Part shown: positions 18,600 to 48,705 of the stretch, one piece after another
Position numbering within the stretch: position 1 is the stretch's first letter
Layout: each line of letters opens with the position of its first letter
From: a virus
Reading direction: 5' to 3' (one strand)
IMG/VR virus record: IMGVR_UViG_3300031274_000003
Coordinates: 1 to 50,476 of that record
Length of the DNA: 50,476 nt
Notes under the pieces: model-generated
Told to the model about the DNA's origin: nothing
The model's database searches: none
What the model saw: the letters and a program-made list of their open reading frames with translations, nothing else
Position numbers and translations under genes: made by a program

Positions 18600-19834
18600 A
18601 GACTTTTTGTGACGCACAGGCGTTTTTCGAGTACGGCCCCGCATCGGTTATGACTGAGGCACCGGACGGAAATATAAATTCCGGTTTTGTCTATGCGCAG
18701 TTACTGCCGCCAGGGATACTGAACTGGTTTTTTAACCAACTTACCTTGAACCAACTGAAGATGGCCCGACGGGCTGTAGGCACTCATGTGCTTGAGGCTT
18801 CGCAGCTGGCTACCGATTATATGGCCATAAAATGGCTCAATCTTCTGAATTTGTGGGTGGCTATACCCAATTCAACATCGGGATATCTTCGGTATTCTCC
18901 TGATGGTGAATACTGGTATCAAGGCGCATCTTTCGATTTCGGTGCTGATTCTCCGACAGCGCCTATAGATTATTTTAGAGCATCGCCTACTCAACTTTCG
19001 CTCTATGCGGCTTCTGATAACGCAGCGGCGGTAGAGGTATTGCACACACTGGACGTTACTACAGGAGCAATGGCCGCGCATCCCGGCGACACGTTGTCGG
19101 CAATAGGCCCCGCTCGGGTTTTCACAAGAAATTCAGAGCTGGCTTCTCAGAATCAACTTATCGTCACTACGGGCTCGCTATCGATGCCTGTGCTAGTGTC
19201 TCCTACGTATCTAGATGATTTTGCCGCCGTCACAGGTTTAGGATCTGTATTGTTCCGACACAGGCTTACGCACTATGTCGACGGTGGGGACAATGATCTG
19301 TGGTTCGGCATAGGCCACGGCGGCGCTGGATTCAGCCTGAAACGGTTTTCTGACACGACTATGGCCAGCGGAACGGAGCTTTACGACTTCGCCACAGAAG
19401 AGCCGGATTTTGTTCCTACAGCTATTGATATAAACAGCAACACGGGGCGCATAATAGTGGCGGGCACGGAGTCGGATACAGACGACCTGCTTAGGATCAT
19501 GTATAGTGATGATTTCGGCAGTACTTGGGCCGATGCCGTTGTTCCCACTGTAGATTTCGGAGCGGCGGCAACACAGGCTACATACGAGCGGATACAGTAT
19601 ATGGGAGGCTCTTTCTGGGTCGGGCACTTTCGGACGGTGGCGACCGCCGCAACGGCGCAGAGTATTTTCTTCTCTGTAGACAACGGTGTTACTTGGTACC
19701 GATCGCAACTTCTATTTGCCGCGTCAGATGAGCAGCAGCTCGCTTTTGCGGATTTTGATTTTTCAGGCAATTACTGGCTGGCCGCCCGCGGGTCTTATGG
19801 CGCGTTCCAGTTCAAAGGGAGTGTTTTGCCGTGA
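18596..19834 (+). CDS. Tail fibre protein with Asp-box propeller repeats
   Basis: This 412-residue protein has a fibre-attachment type N-terminus (about residues 18-50: ending PPGILNWFFNQLT). It then has at least three Asp-box-like units, S-x-D-x-G-x-x-W: SPDGEYW near residue 100, SDDFGSTW near 304 and SVDNGVTW near 362, typical of sialidase-like beta propellers. It probably binds surface sugars; no catalytic claim is made. It overlaps both neighbours by 4 bases. Confidence 0.75.
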   Translation: MKTFCDAQAFFEYGPASVMTEAPDGNINSGFVYAQLLPPGILNWFFNQLTLNQLKMARRAVGTHVLEASQLATDYMAIKWLNLLNLWVAIPNSTSGYLRYSPDGEYWYQGASFDFGADSPTAPIDYFRASPTQLSLYAASDNAAAVEVLHTLDVTTGAMAAHPGDTLSAIGPARVFTRNSELASQNQLIVTTGSLSMPVLVSPTYLDDFAAVTGLGSVLFRHRLTHYVDGGDNDLWFGIGHGGAGFSLKRFSDTTMASGTELYDFATEEPDFVPTAIDINSNTGRIIVAGTESDTDDLLRIMYSDDFGSTWADAVVPTVDFGAAATQATYERIQYMGGSFWVGHFRTVATAATAQSIFFSVDNGVTWYRSQLLFAASDEQQLAFADFDFSGNYWLAARGSYGAFQFKGSVLP

Positions 19835-20184: not shown

Positions 20185-20196
20185 GCGCAACGCCGG

Positions 20197-20237
20197 CCCC
20201 GGTCTTGTTTTTGGTTGCTCCTTTCACAAGACCGGGG
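20197..20237. terminator. Hairpin between convergent operons
   Basis: An 11-bp perfect stem (20197-20207 with 20227-20237) encloses a 19-base loop. It lies between the ends of the late and early operons, so it may stop both transcripts, though neither side has a strong T run. On the minus strand the loop holds an AAAGGAGC ribosome site without a gene. Confidence 0.5.
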
Positions 20238-20248
20238 CGCTTCTGCTT
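20211..20248 (-). repeat. Leader repeat, copy A (orphan)
   Basis: Read on the minus strand, this is a GGTCTTG segment followed by AAAGGAGCAACC. Closely similar copies at 21120-21157 and 21361-21390 lie directly before genes. Here no gene follows the ribosome site, so this looks like the leftover of a lost gene start. Confidence 0.7.
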
Positions 20249-34785: not shown

Positions 34786-37194
34786 ATGGATGTCTATTTA
34801 TTCGACAACTTCAACTCACCGCCAGCTGAGAAAGTAACAGGGGAACCAAGCGAGATACTTGACATATTTGGAGACGAGGCCGCGTGCCCCTCTGTCCTGT
34901 GTCCTACCGAAGAAGACAAGCTGGCAGGCAGTGGTTTTGTTGTGGCTCAGTACAAAGAAGGGGCCCGGTCCAGGAAAGGCAGCGATCTGTCTCCTACCTC
35001 TACCGTTCAGATTCTCGTTTTCGATGTAGACGATGTCACTATAGACCAACTGGCTGAAGCTTGGCCTATTATGTCGTCTTACGACTCAGTGCTTTATTCT
35101 ACTTGGCGCCACACGGCTGACGCGCCTAGATTGCGCTACATGTTGGCTCTAGATAAGCCGATCTCTAACGTCGACAAACGGTATTTTGCATCTATTTATT
35201 CGTACGTGTCTAAAAAATTGAGTCTTCCGTATGATAAACAGGCTTCTGACCATGTAAGATTCTTTTGCGGTCCTCAACATAAACCGGGAGGACAACAAGA
35301 ACGTTATAGGTTCAAAGGGTCCCCTTTCCCCATATCAAAGGCAAGCGTAGCCGCTTTATCGGCGGCTACTAAAGACGAAACTGAAGGTAACGACTTTGAA
35401 GTTACAGGAGACCGGCCAAAAAAGCAAGGAATAAAGAATTTAGCGAAAAAGCTGCGTAACTCTCTTCGACCAGATCACAAAAAAATCGCTACTGCCATAG
35501 AGGCTATTCTCCGCGGGGAGCCTTATGCGCCCGAAGGTAGCCGGCACGCTACCACGCTGAAAGTCACGATGGCATTGGTCCAGAAATGGCCGCAGCTTGA
35601 CGCAGATTGGTTTGCTTCAGAGTATCTTGTCGATAAGTGTTGGGTAGATATGTGGCGCGGCGAAGAAAGCGAGGCGATGACCGACTGGTTAGGGTGTGTG
35701 AACGGCGCCCGAGACCGAATAGTAGAGTCAGAAAGCCGCGCCGCCGCTATGGCTAAAGTCCTAGAGCGTGCAACAAAATCAGTGCCGTTAACCGACTTGG
35801 CCGAACAACTCGGGAAACTTATACTGGCGCACGGAAACAGCTTCTATGTGTGGAGCTTAGACCACAAAATATACACAGGGCCCTGGATAGGCGTGGTTCT
35901 GCCTACCGTGGTTCGTAATCAACTAGGCGCCGTCGACGGTGTTCAAGAATACAAAATCACAAAGCAGGGCCACACGCTGAAAAGTGCCGGCGAGTTGGTG
36001 CATGAATACGGCACTACGGTGAAGGATGTTATCTGGTACCCGGACGAGCCGCCGGCAGTGTATGATGAAGGCACCGAAACACTGTACATGAAGGCCTACA
36101 ATTGGGTGAACTGGGAGCCTAAGTATCACCCAATTGCTGAGGAGCTGCTGTGTGCGGTAGCGGGAAGCCGAATAGAAGACCTGAAAGCGTACTTGTATAA
36201 GTTCAGAGACCTGACACAACCGCTGCCGGCGCTGACTCTTGTGGGGGGCCCCGGTGTCTGGAAGTCTCGCATAATGGAAATACTCGGCCGATGTTGGACC
36301 GACAAAGACGTGAGCCATACCAACAGGGCAGAGCACGCTCTCGCTCGATTCAACACATGTCTTCTCCGAAACCCGACTTGTTGGTCTGATGAGCAGCTAG
36401 TCAAGCTCAACGGCAAAGATCAGCCGGAACTGTATCGAAACAGCATAACGGCTAGAGTGCAGTTCATAGAACCGAAGGGATTGCCCATCGTACCGCTCAA
36501 GTGCGCTATCAGGCACCTGGTATCGGTGAACCGAGACACGCACGTATTCAGTTCTGAGGTAGATGCCGACTCCATCACAGCAACGATGGAGCGCTTTTTG
36601 TTGATAAACGTGGACGAACCCGCCGTGGCCTCATTCGAAGCAAAGTGGCGAGGCACCGAAGAACTTAATGTATTACGTGAAGGTCAATCTTTGCTTGAAC
36701 ACATTAGATTTATTGAAGAAAACAACGCATATAAAAGCGGCGGGCGGTTGTTTGTAGCGCCCAAGGTCGATATGTCCATGCTCATGCGATCCAGATTCCG
36801 AAACGACATGATGAATTACCTGTGGCAGATAGCTTTAGACGCTCTAGAGCAAGAAACGCGGTTCTCTGTTAAGGGTAATCTAACACGGTTACCGCTGGTC
36901 GTAGACGACGAAGGGCGACTACGTGTTTCCCCCGGCAGGCTGCACGCTCTTTGGGCCACCTCCAAAGTTGTTGCAGGAAACGGACTGAAGAGGCCCACCA
37001 CACAAAAGATAGGACACCTGCTCACACAAGCAGGCTTCAAAAAGTACCGAGATGAGCGCGCAACAAAGGCGCCCACGGGCGGCTGGGAAGTCAATTTGAG
37101 CACGTTCAGAGACTTTATTGAGGTCTCTGAGGTTATGAGTTGGGGGGATTTTTGCAGCGCTTGTGAAAACGTGTTCGGACAAGGCCCAAAATAG
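34786..37194 (+). CDS. Primase-helicase
   Basis: This 802-residue protein starts at ATG 34786 after AAGGAGG. The N-terminal third looks like an archaeo-eukaryotic primase domain (ILVFDVDDV near residue 78, then DAPRLRYMLALDKP and a SDHVRFFCGPQ segment). The centre is a D5/VirE-type ATPase with Walker A GGPGVWKS near residue 488 and a CWSDEQL segment. It should prime and unwind DNA. The usual Gly before the Lys of Walker A is Trp here. It lies next to the origin candidate. Confidence 0.82.
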   Translation: MDVYLFDNFNSPPAEKVTGEPSEILDIFGDEAACPSVLCPTEEDKLAGSGFVVAQYKEGARSRKGSDLSPTSTVQILVFDVDDVTIDQLAEAWPIMSSYDSVLYSTWRHTADAPRLRYMLALDKPISNVDKRYFASIYSYVSKKLSLPYDKQASDHVRFFCGPQHKPGGQQERYRFKGSPFPISKASVAALSAATKDETEGNDFEVTGDRPKKQGIKNLAKKLRNSLRPDHKKIATAIEAILRGEPYAPEGSRHATTLKVTMALVQKWPQLDADWFASEYLVDKCWVDMWRGEESEAMTDWLGCVNGARDRIVESESRAAAMAKVLERATKSVPLTDLAEQLGKLILAHGNSFYVWSLDHKIYTGPWIGVVLPTVVRNQLGAVDGVQEYKITKQGHTLKSAGELVHEYGTTVKDVIWYPDEPPAVYDEGTETLYMKAYNWVNWEPKYHPIAEELLCAVAGSRIEDLKAYLYKFRDLTQPLPALTLVGGPGVWKSRIMEILGRCWTDKDVSHTNRAEHALARFNTCLLRNPTCWSDEQLVKLNGKDQPELYRNSITARVQFIEPKGLPIVPLKCAIRHLVSVNRDTHVFSSEVDADSITATMERFLLINVDEPAVASFEAKWRGTEELNVLREGQSLLEHIRFIEENNAYKSGGRLFVAPKVDMSMLMRSRFRNDMMNYLWQIALDALEQETRFSVKGNLTRLPLVVDDEGRLRVSPGRLHALWATSKVVAGNGLKRPTTQKIGHLLTQAGFKKYRDERATKAPTGGWEVNLSTFRDFIEVSEVMSWGDFCSACENVFGQGPK

Positions 37195-37751: not shown

Positions 37752-37882
37752 GGCCGAAAGGCCTATTGATTTATAATTCGTGTGAGAAAGTATCAAAAAT
37801 TTTATTAAGAGAGGTGTGCGCGCGAGGCGTAAAAAAACGCGCGTACGTAAGGGGGAGTATGAAATCAATAGGCCTTTCGGCC
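37752..37882. repeat. Large inverted repeat in the gene-free region
   Basis: The arms 37752-37772 and 37862-37882 are perfect 21-bp inverted copies around an 89-base centre. Each arm holds a small hairpin with GGCC ends (GGCC-GAAA-GGCC and its partner), and the right one is followed by TTTTT. Inside the centre is a GC-rich inverted repeat around 37816-37846. Confidence 0.8.
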
Positions 37883-39101: not shown

Positions 39102-39779
39102 ATGTCTTTTTTCTCTCCCCAAATGGCCGCAGTGCTGAAGGAAAAGCCTGCGGCCATCCTTTTTTCAGGCGGCAAAGACAGCATCGCTATGTCAGATATG
39201 CTGAATGAGGAAGGCCTGCTGCCTAAACTGTTTGTGTATTTTTATTTTGTGCCGGGTTTATCGTTTGTGGAGTCTGTGCTCAGGCATTATGCTAGACTGT
39301 GGCGGGTAGGTATACTTCGCTACCCGTCAGACGAATCGCTTAGTTTAATGGCACAGATGAAGGGGGCGCGCAAAACCAAATACAATGAATCGGATGTGCT
39401 TAAGGCGCTCCGAGAAAGTTTGTCGCTTCGAAAGGAGTTGGCAGACATTTGGCTAGTTTCGGGAGCTAAGAAAAAAGACAGCTTAGCTAGGCGCGGGATG
39501 TTGTCCAAACTATCGAACGGAATAGATCCTAAGCGTAAGGTGATATACCCGCTTATTGATTGGTCGGATCGGCAAGTGATGGCTTATTGTAAGCAGCGTA
39601 AACTGAGACTGCCTATAACTTATAGCATGGGCCTAAAGAATTCTATGTGGGTGCCGGATATAGAAGGCCTTATCTGGATAAAAGCTAATTTCCCTAGAGA
39701 TTATGACCGTATAATTGCCGTGTTTCCTATTTTAAGCAGCATGGTGTTTAAGCATGAGAGGCAGTATGCCCGCAAATAA
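39102..39779 (+). CDS. PP-loop ATPase, PAPS-reductase-like
   Basis: This 225-residue protein has the PP-loop FSGGKDSIAMSDM (residues 19-31) of the adenine-nucleotide alpha hydrolase fold, as in PAPS reductase and DndC. A YSMGLKNSMWVPD segment near residue 180 and basic residues in the centre complete the fold. The four-Cys pattern for an iron-sulphur cluster is absent. It overlaps the ParB-like gene by 14 bases. The pair recurs in phages; its substrate is not known to me. Confidence 0.75.
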   Translation: MSFFSPQMAAVLKEKPAAILFSGGKDSIAMSDMLNEEGLLPKLFVYFYFVPGLSFVESVLRHYARLWRVGILRYPSDESLSLMAQMKGARKTKYNESDVLKALRESLSLRKELADIWLVSGAKKKDSLARRGMLSKLSNGIDPKRKVIYPLIDWSDRQVMAYCKQRKLRLPITYSMGLKNSMWVPDIEGLIWIKANFPRDYDRIIAVFPILSSMVFKHERQYARK

Positions 39780-40545
39780 ATATGAAGCGTTTGAGACGGC
39801 GATTATTCACAGGAGTCGTATAGCGACGGCCGATTACAACCCTAGGATTATATCTGAAGAAGCCAAGAAAAAGCTTAAACGTTTCATGAAATCCAAGCAG
39901 TTCGGTTTGTTGGCTCCGTTGGTATGGAACGTGTTAACAGGCACCTTGGTATCGGGCCATCAGCGTCTGGAGGTGCTTGACGCGCTACATGGGCATCTTG
40001 ATTATGAGCTGACTGTAGCCCAGGTAGAGCTGTCTGAAGAAGACGAGGTAAAGGCTAATGTTTTTCTGAACAATCCGTCAGCACAAGGCCAGTGGGATTA
40101 TGATGTCTTGACGCAGTTGGCGGATTTAGGCGATTTCGATTTCGATTTCGAGAAAGATTTTGGTTTTTCGTCGGACGAAATTGAGCTTATTTTCGGCCCG
40201 CCTGAGGAGGAGCTTGATCAGATAACGGCCGACGGAATGGCGCAGCTGCACGATATGATCCCCGATAAACCGCAACAGGTAGAAGTTGACGAGACTGTTG
40301 ACAGCTCTTTGTCTGAAGAGGAGGCCGAAAAGTTCAGGCAGCTTAAAAAGGAAGCGCGAGAGAAAGCAAAGCTTGACAATTTAAATGGGGATGGCTATAG
40401 ATTGAGTAAGGCTGATGTTACGGTCACGGTGGTCTTCAAAGACGCCGAGACGAAACGGGGCTTCATGCGGTTGATTTCAAGGCCTGAGACAGAACGGAAT
40501 ATAACAGCAGAGCATTTGTTCGAATGCATAGAGAACGGGTTTTAG
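39766..40545 (+). CDS. ParB-like nuclease-domain protein
   Basis: The start is ATG 39766 after GAGAGG. In this 259-residue protein, residues 20-110 have the ParB/sulfiredoxin-like fold: ADYNPRIISEEA, LLAPLVWN, LVSGHQRLEVLDALH. The centre is acidic (from about 110 to 175) and the end is a separate helical/strand region. Such proteins are often next to PP-loop or methyltransferase genes in phages, which suggests a role in DNA modification or in sensing it. Confidence 0.8.
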   Translation: MPANKYEAFETAIIHRSRIATADYNPRIISEEAKKKLKRFMKSKQFGLLAPLVWNVLTGTLVSGHQRLEVLDALHGHLDYELTVAQVELSEEDEVKANVFLNNPSAQGQWDYDVLTQLADLGDFDFDFEKDFGFSSDEIELIFGPPEEELDQITADGMAQLHDMIPDKPQQVEVDETVDSSLSEEEAEKFRQLKKEAREKAKLDNLNGDGYRLSKADVTVTVVFKDAETKRGFMRLISRPETERNITAEHLFECIENGF

Positions 40546-41706: not shown

Positions 41707-41858
41707 TTTGGTTGGGTGTTGCTATGACGGTGTCCGGCGTTTATAAAGCGCTGACAGGCGGCGACGACAGTATGGACATAGATAAACTTCAGCAGCTTGT
41801 CGAAGGAATTACGGTTCTTGTGCTCCGAGTTGCTACTACAAAAGGCCTGACTAAATGA
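41673..41858 (+). CDS. Small membrane protein, possible holin
   Basis: This 61-residue protein starts with KKWYQSKLIWLGVAMTVSGV, an opening typical of small phage membrane proteins near endolysins, and has one probable membrane helix at residues 11-27. The second half is moderately hydrophobic. It lies two genes after the amidase. Holin function is inferred. Confidence 0.58.
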   Translation: MDNKKWYQSKLIWLGVAMTVSGVYKALTGGDDSMDIDKLQQLVEGITVLVLRVATTKGLTK

Positions 41859-42052
41859 AATTGTCGGACATACAAGCGGGAAAGCAGTATAGAGTTTGCT
41901 CAGATAGTGTGTGCGGTAATTTTATAATCGGCGATGTAGTTCAGAAGTATGTCGACGGCAGTTTACGTAACTACATGGTGGCGGATTTAGTGAGTTTGAC
42001 ACCTAAGGGCGAGTGGGAACATCTAGATTGTGAAGTGGAGCCGGTTGAATGA
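41855..42052 (+). CDS. Small unknown protein, tandem copy 1
   Basis: This 65-residue protein is a near-copy of the next gene (MKL-DIQ-GK, then IGDVVQKY, and a DCEVE end). Both look like small beta barrels with two or three Cys. It overlaps the neighbours by ATGA. No function is recognised. Confidence 0.65.
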   Translation: MKLSDIQAGKQYRVCSDSVCGNFIIGDVVQKYVDGSLRNYMVADLVSLTPKGEWEHLDCEVEPVE

Positions 42053-42246
42053 AGCTAGCTGATATACAAGAGGGCAAGAAGTACAGAGTATGCTGGGGCA
42101 GTGCTTGCGGCACTTTTGTGATAGGCGATGTAGTTCAGAAGTATGGCGATGGTTGTTTGGGTAATAGTATGATTGACGGTTTAGGCGGCTGGTTAGAAAA
42201 AGGCCAGTGGGAGAATATCGATTGTGAAGTGGAGCTGGTTGAATAG
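42049..42246 (+). CDS. Small unknown protein, tandem copy 2
   Basis: This is the second of the two 65-residue paralogues, with more than half of the residues shared. It has an additional Cys near the middle (GDGCLGNSM). The structured non-coding segment begins after its stop. Confidence 0.65.
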   Translation: MKLADIQEGKKYRVCWGSACGTFVIGDVVQKYGDGCLGNSMIDGLGGWLEKGQWENIDCEVELVE

Positions 42247-42253
42247 GCAATTA

Positions 42254-42305
42254 CACCGACCTGCGTTTCTTAGGCCTAAACCCTAGGATTGGTTGCACGT
42301 CGGTG
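42254..42305 (+). other. Upstream hairpin of the structured segment
   Basis: CACCGAC (42254-42260) pairs with GTCGGTG (42299-42305). Inside, CCTAAACCCTAGG and a TTAGGCCTAA palindrome can form smaller hairpins. It stands just before the long stem at 42311. Confidence 0.55.
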
Positions 42306-42310
42306 CTTGT

Positions 42311-42444
42311 GCCCGCCTGCACCTGTAGAAGATAAGTACGGTCGAATGCAACGTACTAAGTCATTTGGACGAAAGTGCATACCGCAAAGTGATTGACAGC
42401 TTTAGGTGCCTGAAGAATAATGTAAGGTGCAGGCGGGCTTTTTT
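42311..42444 (+). ncRNA. Structured RNA element ending in an intrinsic terminator
   Basis: A perfect 14-bp stem pairs 42311-42324 with 42425-42438, followed by TTTTTT (42439-42444). The enclosed 100 bases have further pairing: AGTACG (42335-42340) with CGTACT (42352-42357); the loop ATGCA (42346-42350) with TGCAT (42376-42380), which gives a pseudoknot; and AAAGTG/CA-CTTT around 42386-42403. No protein frame explains it. It lies upstream of the terminase genes. It could be a leader regulator, a stable small RNA or a packaging RNA. Confidence 0.6.
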
Positions 42445-47902: not shown

Positions 47903-48208
47903 CTAGAGCTTGTACGCGGCCACCACATTGGCCGGATTTCTGGCCATGTATTCGTCTGACCATTCGGTAGTGACTCGGACATTGTTTATGACTTCTCTTA
48001 TCCAGTCGAAGTCACTGTAGTGGTACGGATAGCAGTCACCGAAGACCGTTGCATGTCGTTTGAAGTAGTCATCGTTTTTGTTTTTGATCTCGAACAAAAA
48101 TGTCCGCAGGCTCAAAAACATTTTGGCGTCTATTTTCAATGTCCGCCACAGTGAGCCGTCCAGGTTGTAGATGGCTTCCTCTGTAAAAATTCGTTCCGCT
48201 CTTTTCAT
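47903..48208 (-). CDS. Accessory protein 5, first gene of the minus cassette
   Basis: The start is ATG 48208 after TAGGAGG; 101 residues. It is directly behind promoter P4, so it should be expressed with the early genes that use the same promoter type. Trp/Tyr-rich helical sequence is seen; no family is known. Confidence 0.65.
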   Translation of the reverse strand: MKRAERIFTEEAIYNLDGSLWRTLKIDAKMFLSLRTFLFEIKNKNDDYFKRHATVFGDCYPYHYSDFDWIREVINNVRVTTEWSDEYMARNPANVVAAYKL

Positions 48209-48669: not shown

Positions 48670-48698
48670 TTGACAAGAACTGTTTTTTCTGTTCATAG
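48670..48698 (+). promoter_or_regulatory. Late promoter before the protease gene
   Basis: TTGACA (48670-48675), a 17-base spacer and TCATAG (48693-48698). Transcription would begin at about 48705, next to the ATG at 48706, which has no SD. TTAAAAT (48699-48705) could be another -10 but would then overlap the start codon. Confidence 0.5.
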
Positions 48699-48705
48699 TT
48701 AAAAT

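Follow-up and report, generated by a model that had tools for sequence, protein, structure and literature searches.

A covariation-supported phage RNA element with a terminator-like closing helix, found at the lysis-packaging junction of two uncultured phages

Few noncoding RNAs of phages are known to have a structure backed by covariation. GOLLD and ROOL are structured RNAs of several hundred nucleotides that occur in phage genomes and form Rfam families, and the PR'-tR' leader of lambda (6S RNA) spans about 200 nt, with an intrinsic terminator just before the late genes that is read through with Q. The RNA structures of GOLLD and ROOL are ornate (PMC12286853). The put RNA of phage HK022 works in cis as an antitermination RNA, binding RNA polymerase and suppressing termination; the put sites of about 70 nt, putL and putR, lie downstream of the early promoters and act on distant terminators (PMC9378689).

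Here we describe an RNA element of about 199 nt at 42246-42444, on the plus strand of a 50,476-bp stretch of DNA (the window, analysed at its full length) that constitutes IMG/VR virus record IMGVR_UViG_3300031274_000003. Gene content, including tail sheath, baseplate, TerS/TerL, portal, protease, major capsid protein, DNA polymerase and helicase, identifies the source as a myovirus. The element lies between the lysis genes and the DNA-packaging genes of this uncultured phage, in the order amidase, small ORF, holin-like ORF (small, and assigned by eye), two 65-aa ORFs, element, short peptide, terS and terL. Like HK022 put, it is phage-encoded and would present two adjacent long stem-loops in the nascent RNA before co-oriented phage genes; unlike put, it is ~199 nt long, occurs in one copy among late genes, after the lysis genes, and its second stem is itself a probable terminator with a centre of 100-154 nt.

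Lambda 6S RNA is similar in its length of ~200 nt, its terminator at the end and its place just before late genes, whereas our element has a heavily covarying structure, and neither a conserved 5' promoter nor a Q-like protein was found for it. Unlike GOLLD and ROOL, it measures about 199-248 nt and belongs to no Rfam family. As with phi29 pRNA, it is a structured phage RNA that in the window adjoins packaging genes, but it has no Rfam match, accompanies different packaging machinery and lies apart from the terminase in a related phage. Inverted repeats around hairpins also recall retron msr-msd; unlike in retrons, no adjacent reverse transcriptase gene is known from the ORFs scanned, and no reverse transcriptase family was found among the large ORFs and the part of the small ORFs covered.

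The conserved RNA starts at 42246/42247, immediately past the TAG that ends the upstream ORF, and comprises two domains side by side. The first is a long hairpin (P0/P1/P1c); the second is a core, made up of P3 and a variable part, around which the stem P2 closes. An earlier sequence-only reading had placed the element at 42254-42444; its 5' hairpin (42254-42305) is real and among the best supported parts, while the true start is a few bases earlier. Strand GCAA of P0 (42247-42250) pairs with TTGT (42307-42310), identically in both independent folds of the RNAs described below, and these pairs are invariant between the two phages and so provide no covariation evidence for P0. No nucleotide separates P0 from P2, and the two helices are likely to stack coaxially. 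P1 has 7 bp (42254-42260 with 42299-42305) and three compensatory changes; within its hairpin the predicted fold contains the 3-bp P1b (42262-42264 with 42295-42297) and the apical hairpin P1c (42268-42288; 7 bp), which has three compensatory changes and a conserved loop, CCYAAAC (42275-42281).

In the window, P2 is a perfect 14-bp stem (42311-42324 with 42425-42438) around a 100-nt centre and is followed directly by T6 (42439-42444), exactly as first read. P3 (42335-42357) has 6 bp (42335-42340 with 42352-42357), three compensatory changes and one one-sided change, and its loop sequence CGAATGC (42343-42349) is the same in both phages. Beyond it, GACGA (42368-42372) is conserved 18 nt from CGAATGC in both phages (alignment A5, below), and GTGATTGAC (42389-42397) forms a conserved island in the 3' half of the centre, which is otherwise variable. 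This island overlaps the -35 of a sigma-70-like promoter candidate inside the P2 loop (TTGACA-17-AATAAT, 42393-42421; 11 of 12 consensus positions). The window holds three perfect stems of at least 14 bp with loops of up to 200 nt, against 0.017 expected per dinucleotide-shuffled window, and two stems of at least 10 bp followed by a T-run, against 0.1 expected by the same measure. Folding energies relative to shuffles are z = -5.2 for 42311-42444 and z = -4.4 for 42246-42444.

A homolog occurs at the corresponding place (40076-40323; ~248 nt) in the sole close relative found, G001 (IMGVR_UViG_3300027987_000471; 51,307 bp), the TerL of which is 89% identical and which shares ~70% nucleotide identity with the window across most of the genome. 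A plain DNA search missed the element in G001; a long-stem scan and inspection revealed the homolog. Both sequences contain, as landmarks, GGCAAT, the apical GGCCYAAACCC hairpin, TTGTGC, TAAGT, CGAATGC, GACGA, GTGATTGAC (40240-40248 in G001) and, at the T6 run, an identical TTTTTTAAAA. The sequence of the closing stem has changed in G001, where it forms 10 Watson-Crick pairs and one GU pair, and the enclosed centre is ~152-154 nt long. Folded separately, the two RNAs yield the same helices: P0, P1, P1b, P1c, P2 and P3. No open reading frame over the element is common to both phages.

Fourteen base pairs changed on both sides (5 in P2, 9 elsewhere) and 1 of 39 pairs was lost, this covariation deriving from one sequence pair, the window element and its G001 homolog. 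For 28 pairs, the MAFFT alignment A5, which covers the 5' 134 columns, gives nine double changes (in P1, P1c and P3), one one-sided change and one broken pair. The P2 pairs were aligned by hand from the outside in, anchored by TTGTGC on the 5' side and the T-run on the 3' side and including a one-base choice at the outermost pair, and the 11 that both phages share include five compensatory changes, one one-sided change and no broken pair. The 14-bp stem had been named beforehand as a place to look for compensatory changes in related phages. Sliding the pairing partners by 1-3 columns left no double changes and abolished pairing.

As a control, 1,798 aligned 134-nt blocks from the rest of both genomes, folded and scored like the element, averaged 1.4 double changes (maximum 7) and kept a mean of 63% of pairs, none keeping 95%. 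On this measure the element has 10 double changes at only 56% identity; of the 35 pairs in its 134-nt minimum-energy fold, for which the P2 3' arm was left out, 29 are kept. Because the double changes fall at the same positions with different letters, they point to selection on an RNA or single-strand fold and not on a DNA-binding sequence, and from the two genomes compared we conclude that the fold is under selection in both phages. The suggestion that this is a structured RNA and more than a plain terminator is borne out by the comparison with one homolog, in which P2 and three further helices together show 14 compensatory changes.

Two finer points of the sequence-only reading fared less well. 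The letters ATGCA (42346-42350), TGCAT (42376-42380) and AGGTGC (42404-42409) are all present, yet the pseudoknot proposed between the first two finds no TGCAT partner in G001 even though the P3 loop is conserved. Likewise, the proposed two-form attenuator, in which AGGTGC pairs with GCACCT, has a predicted probability of 0.95 in the window transcript as long as the 3' arm is still missing, and no equivalent in G001. A possible pairing of the P3-loop GAATGC with GCATTC of P1 is perfect in G001 and imperfect in the window.

The original statement that the element matches no family agrees with Rfam 15, in which the whole window had no match at gathering cut-offs; at E values up to 10, the element and its G001 copy drew only implausible sub-threshold matches (MIR530, at 17.6 of 85 bits, on the antisense strand). 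BLASTN against phages and plasmids found no homolog of the element. Conserved-motif scans of IMG/VR recovered only G001, other matches being chance by covariance model or inspection, as were all 75 stretches returned by a conserved-motif scan of GTDB genomes. Protein scans with TerL, the major capsid protein, the amidase and the 65-aa ORF found no close relative besides G001, and a TerL scan of GTDB genomes found no close relative. Covariance model R1 scores 141.9 and 152.5 bits on its two building members, with the next best at 12 bits, and over 84 sources and 32 virus records it found those two members only. Models R1 and R2 both find one copy per genome in the window and G001, with second-best scores at noise level.

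Thus, on present data, the element appears restricted to a small uncultured phage lineage, and we regard it as a sound claim that the two members define a new covariation-supported phage RNA family in which a putative terminator serves as closing helix. It stands outside Rfam, sits where lysis genes give way to packaging genes, carries two invariant exposed loops, and has an unusual layout: a hairpin is set directly against a terminator helix, which in turn surrounds a folded core. Enough of the structure is defined to serve as a guide for probing, deletion and pull-down work and as the seed of covariance searches in larger virus collections.

The genes on either side of the element differ between the two phages. 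Upstream, two 65-aa ORFs in the window stand against a holin-like gene in G001, a few nucleotides past which the element starts. Downstream, the short peptide and terS of the window stand against a 1.7-kb gene for a 565-aa beta-helix-like lipoprotein, which in G001 separates the element from terS and leaves a gap of 1.9 kb. The terminase link of the earlier reading is weak: terS is close by in the window, but in G001 this gene intervenes. The G001 gene (L011:4858-6555) is absent from the window; its product is lipoprotein-like and probably a beta-helix, a fold judged by eye. The 65-aa ORFs of the window (41855-42052 and 42049-42246) are tandem duplicates with 72% DNA identity; they match no family, and tblastn against G001 found no counterpart.

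Our preferred reading, to which we give just short of an even chance, is that the element is a noncoding RNA of the phage, that its closing helix also serves the lysis unit as terminator, and that the RNA acts independently through its two conserved loops. Its transcription, 3' end and function are what we infer from sequence. RNA polymerase leaving the lysis genes would transcribe the element, the pre-folded core would draw the distant P2 arms together, and P2 with U6 would halt transcription and leave a stable RNA 3' end. The product may stay joined to the lysis mRNA as its tail, or be freed as an RNA of its own by processing close to the upstream stop codon. The exposed loops CCYAAAC (P1c) and CGAAUGC (P3) could bind a protein, of the phage or of the host, or a second RNA. 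Transcription would get to the downstream genes by leak-through and, in the window phage, perhaps also from a promoter within the P2 loop.

P1, P1c and P3 are unneeded for termination, yet their structure is conserved and their loops are invariant, which makes an additional role of the RNA probable. Additionally, the differing flanking genes favour a self-contained RNA over regulation of one gene. No conserved promoter was found just upstream of the element, so independent expression would need processing. A search for complements near gene starts in the two phage genomes found no antisense target common to both phages for either loop. Rather unlikely, though conceivable, is a regulatory phage RNA of a new class: its terminator helix would surround a core for sensing or binding, and the one element would both end the lysis unit and either control the expression of packaging genes or act on a target in the host.

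The main rival is a cis-acting conditional terminator, an attenuator or put-like RNA, in which the P0/P1 and P3 domains, alone or bound by a factor, would decide whether transcription stops at P2 and U6 and thereby set run-on into the terminase-portal genes; we judge this possible, though on balance unlikely. Only 19 nt in the window and about 40 nt in G001 separate T6 from the next start codon, and no good promoter was found in between in either genome, so the downstream genes may depend on read-through and a cis role stays a serious rival. A place among co-oriented genes is likewise compatible with a cis role, and while the 3' arm is still missing, an alternative pairing of GGCA with TGCY at the base of P2 is predicted in both phages (probability ~0.98 and ~0.67). 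However, G001 lacks the AGGTGC alternative, the two phages have different genes immediately after the element, and the P1 domain is single-copy in each genome, whereas the put sites of HK022 are paired (PMC9378689).

It is improbable that the element is just a common intrinsic terminator closing the lysis operon, with arms far apart and a centre kept only as folding scaffold or mRNA 3'-end protection. P2 with T6 is textbook-like: in both phages a G+C-rich stem runs straight into a T-run, a terminator sequence at which transcription would stop, and T6AAAA is identical in the two. However, the loop of 100 nt here and 152-154 nt in G001 is not the short loop expected of an intrinsic terminator, and both genomes close the tail genes with a plain short-loop stem (20196-20238 in the window; 18848-18892 in G001). 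Moreover, P1, P1c and P3 covary, with invariant loops at fixed spacing, which a terminator does not need.

Still less probable is a terminator with a nested promoter for the terminase operon, at which upstream transcripts would stop at P2 and a new transcript would start at ~42428 in the 3' arm, without the 5' arm. The 11-of-12 site at 42393-42421 argues for it, since such sites occur ~2 times per 50-kb genome and roughly 0.003 are expected in the element stretch, and the -35-like TTGAC is kept in G001. However, the G001 site reads TTGACT-18-ATTAAA, with no good -10 at the right distance, and a promoter leaves the covariation of P1 and P3 unexplained. Such a promoter could coexist with the independent RNA that we prefer. 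Elsewhere, a promoter-like TTTGACA-N18-CATAGT is conserved in both phages before the head protease and capsid genes (48670-48699; G001 48121-48150).

A packaging RNA resembling phi29 pRNA, or an RNA or single-stranded DNA packaging site for terminase, is very improbable: the element is near terS in the window phage, but it is 1.9 kb away in G001, the phage has an ordinary TerS/TerL pair whereas pRNA partners the gp16 ATPase of phi29-like phages, and there is no match to an Rfam pRNA.

Two other loci of the window were noted. A PAPS reductase-like auxiliary metabolic gene (39102-39779) adjoins a ParB-like gene. A second large inverted repeat (37752-37882; G001 35690-35823) has a 21-bp perfect stem and a centre of 89 nt in the window and 92 nt in G001 with a conserved interior, ATAATTCGTRTGAG...GGGGAGTAT, and shows three compensatory changes in the 17 pairs compared with G001. 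This repeat sits in an 870-bp AT-rich noncoding region that contains seven copies of AATAGGCC and resembles a replication origin.
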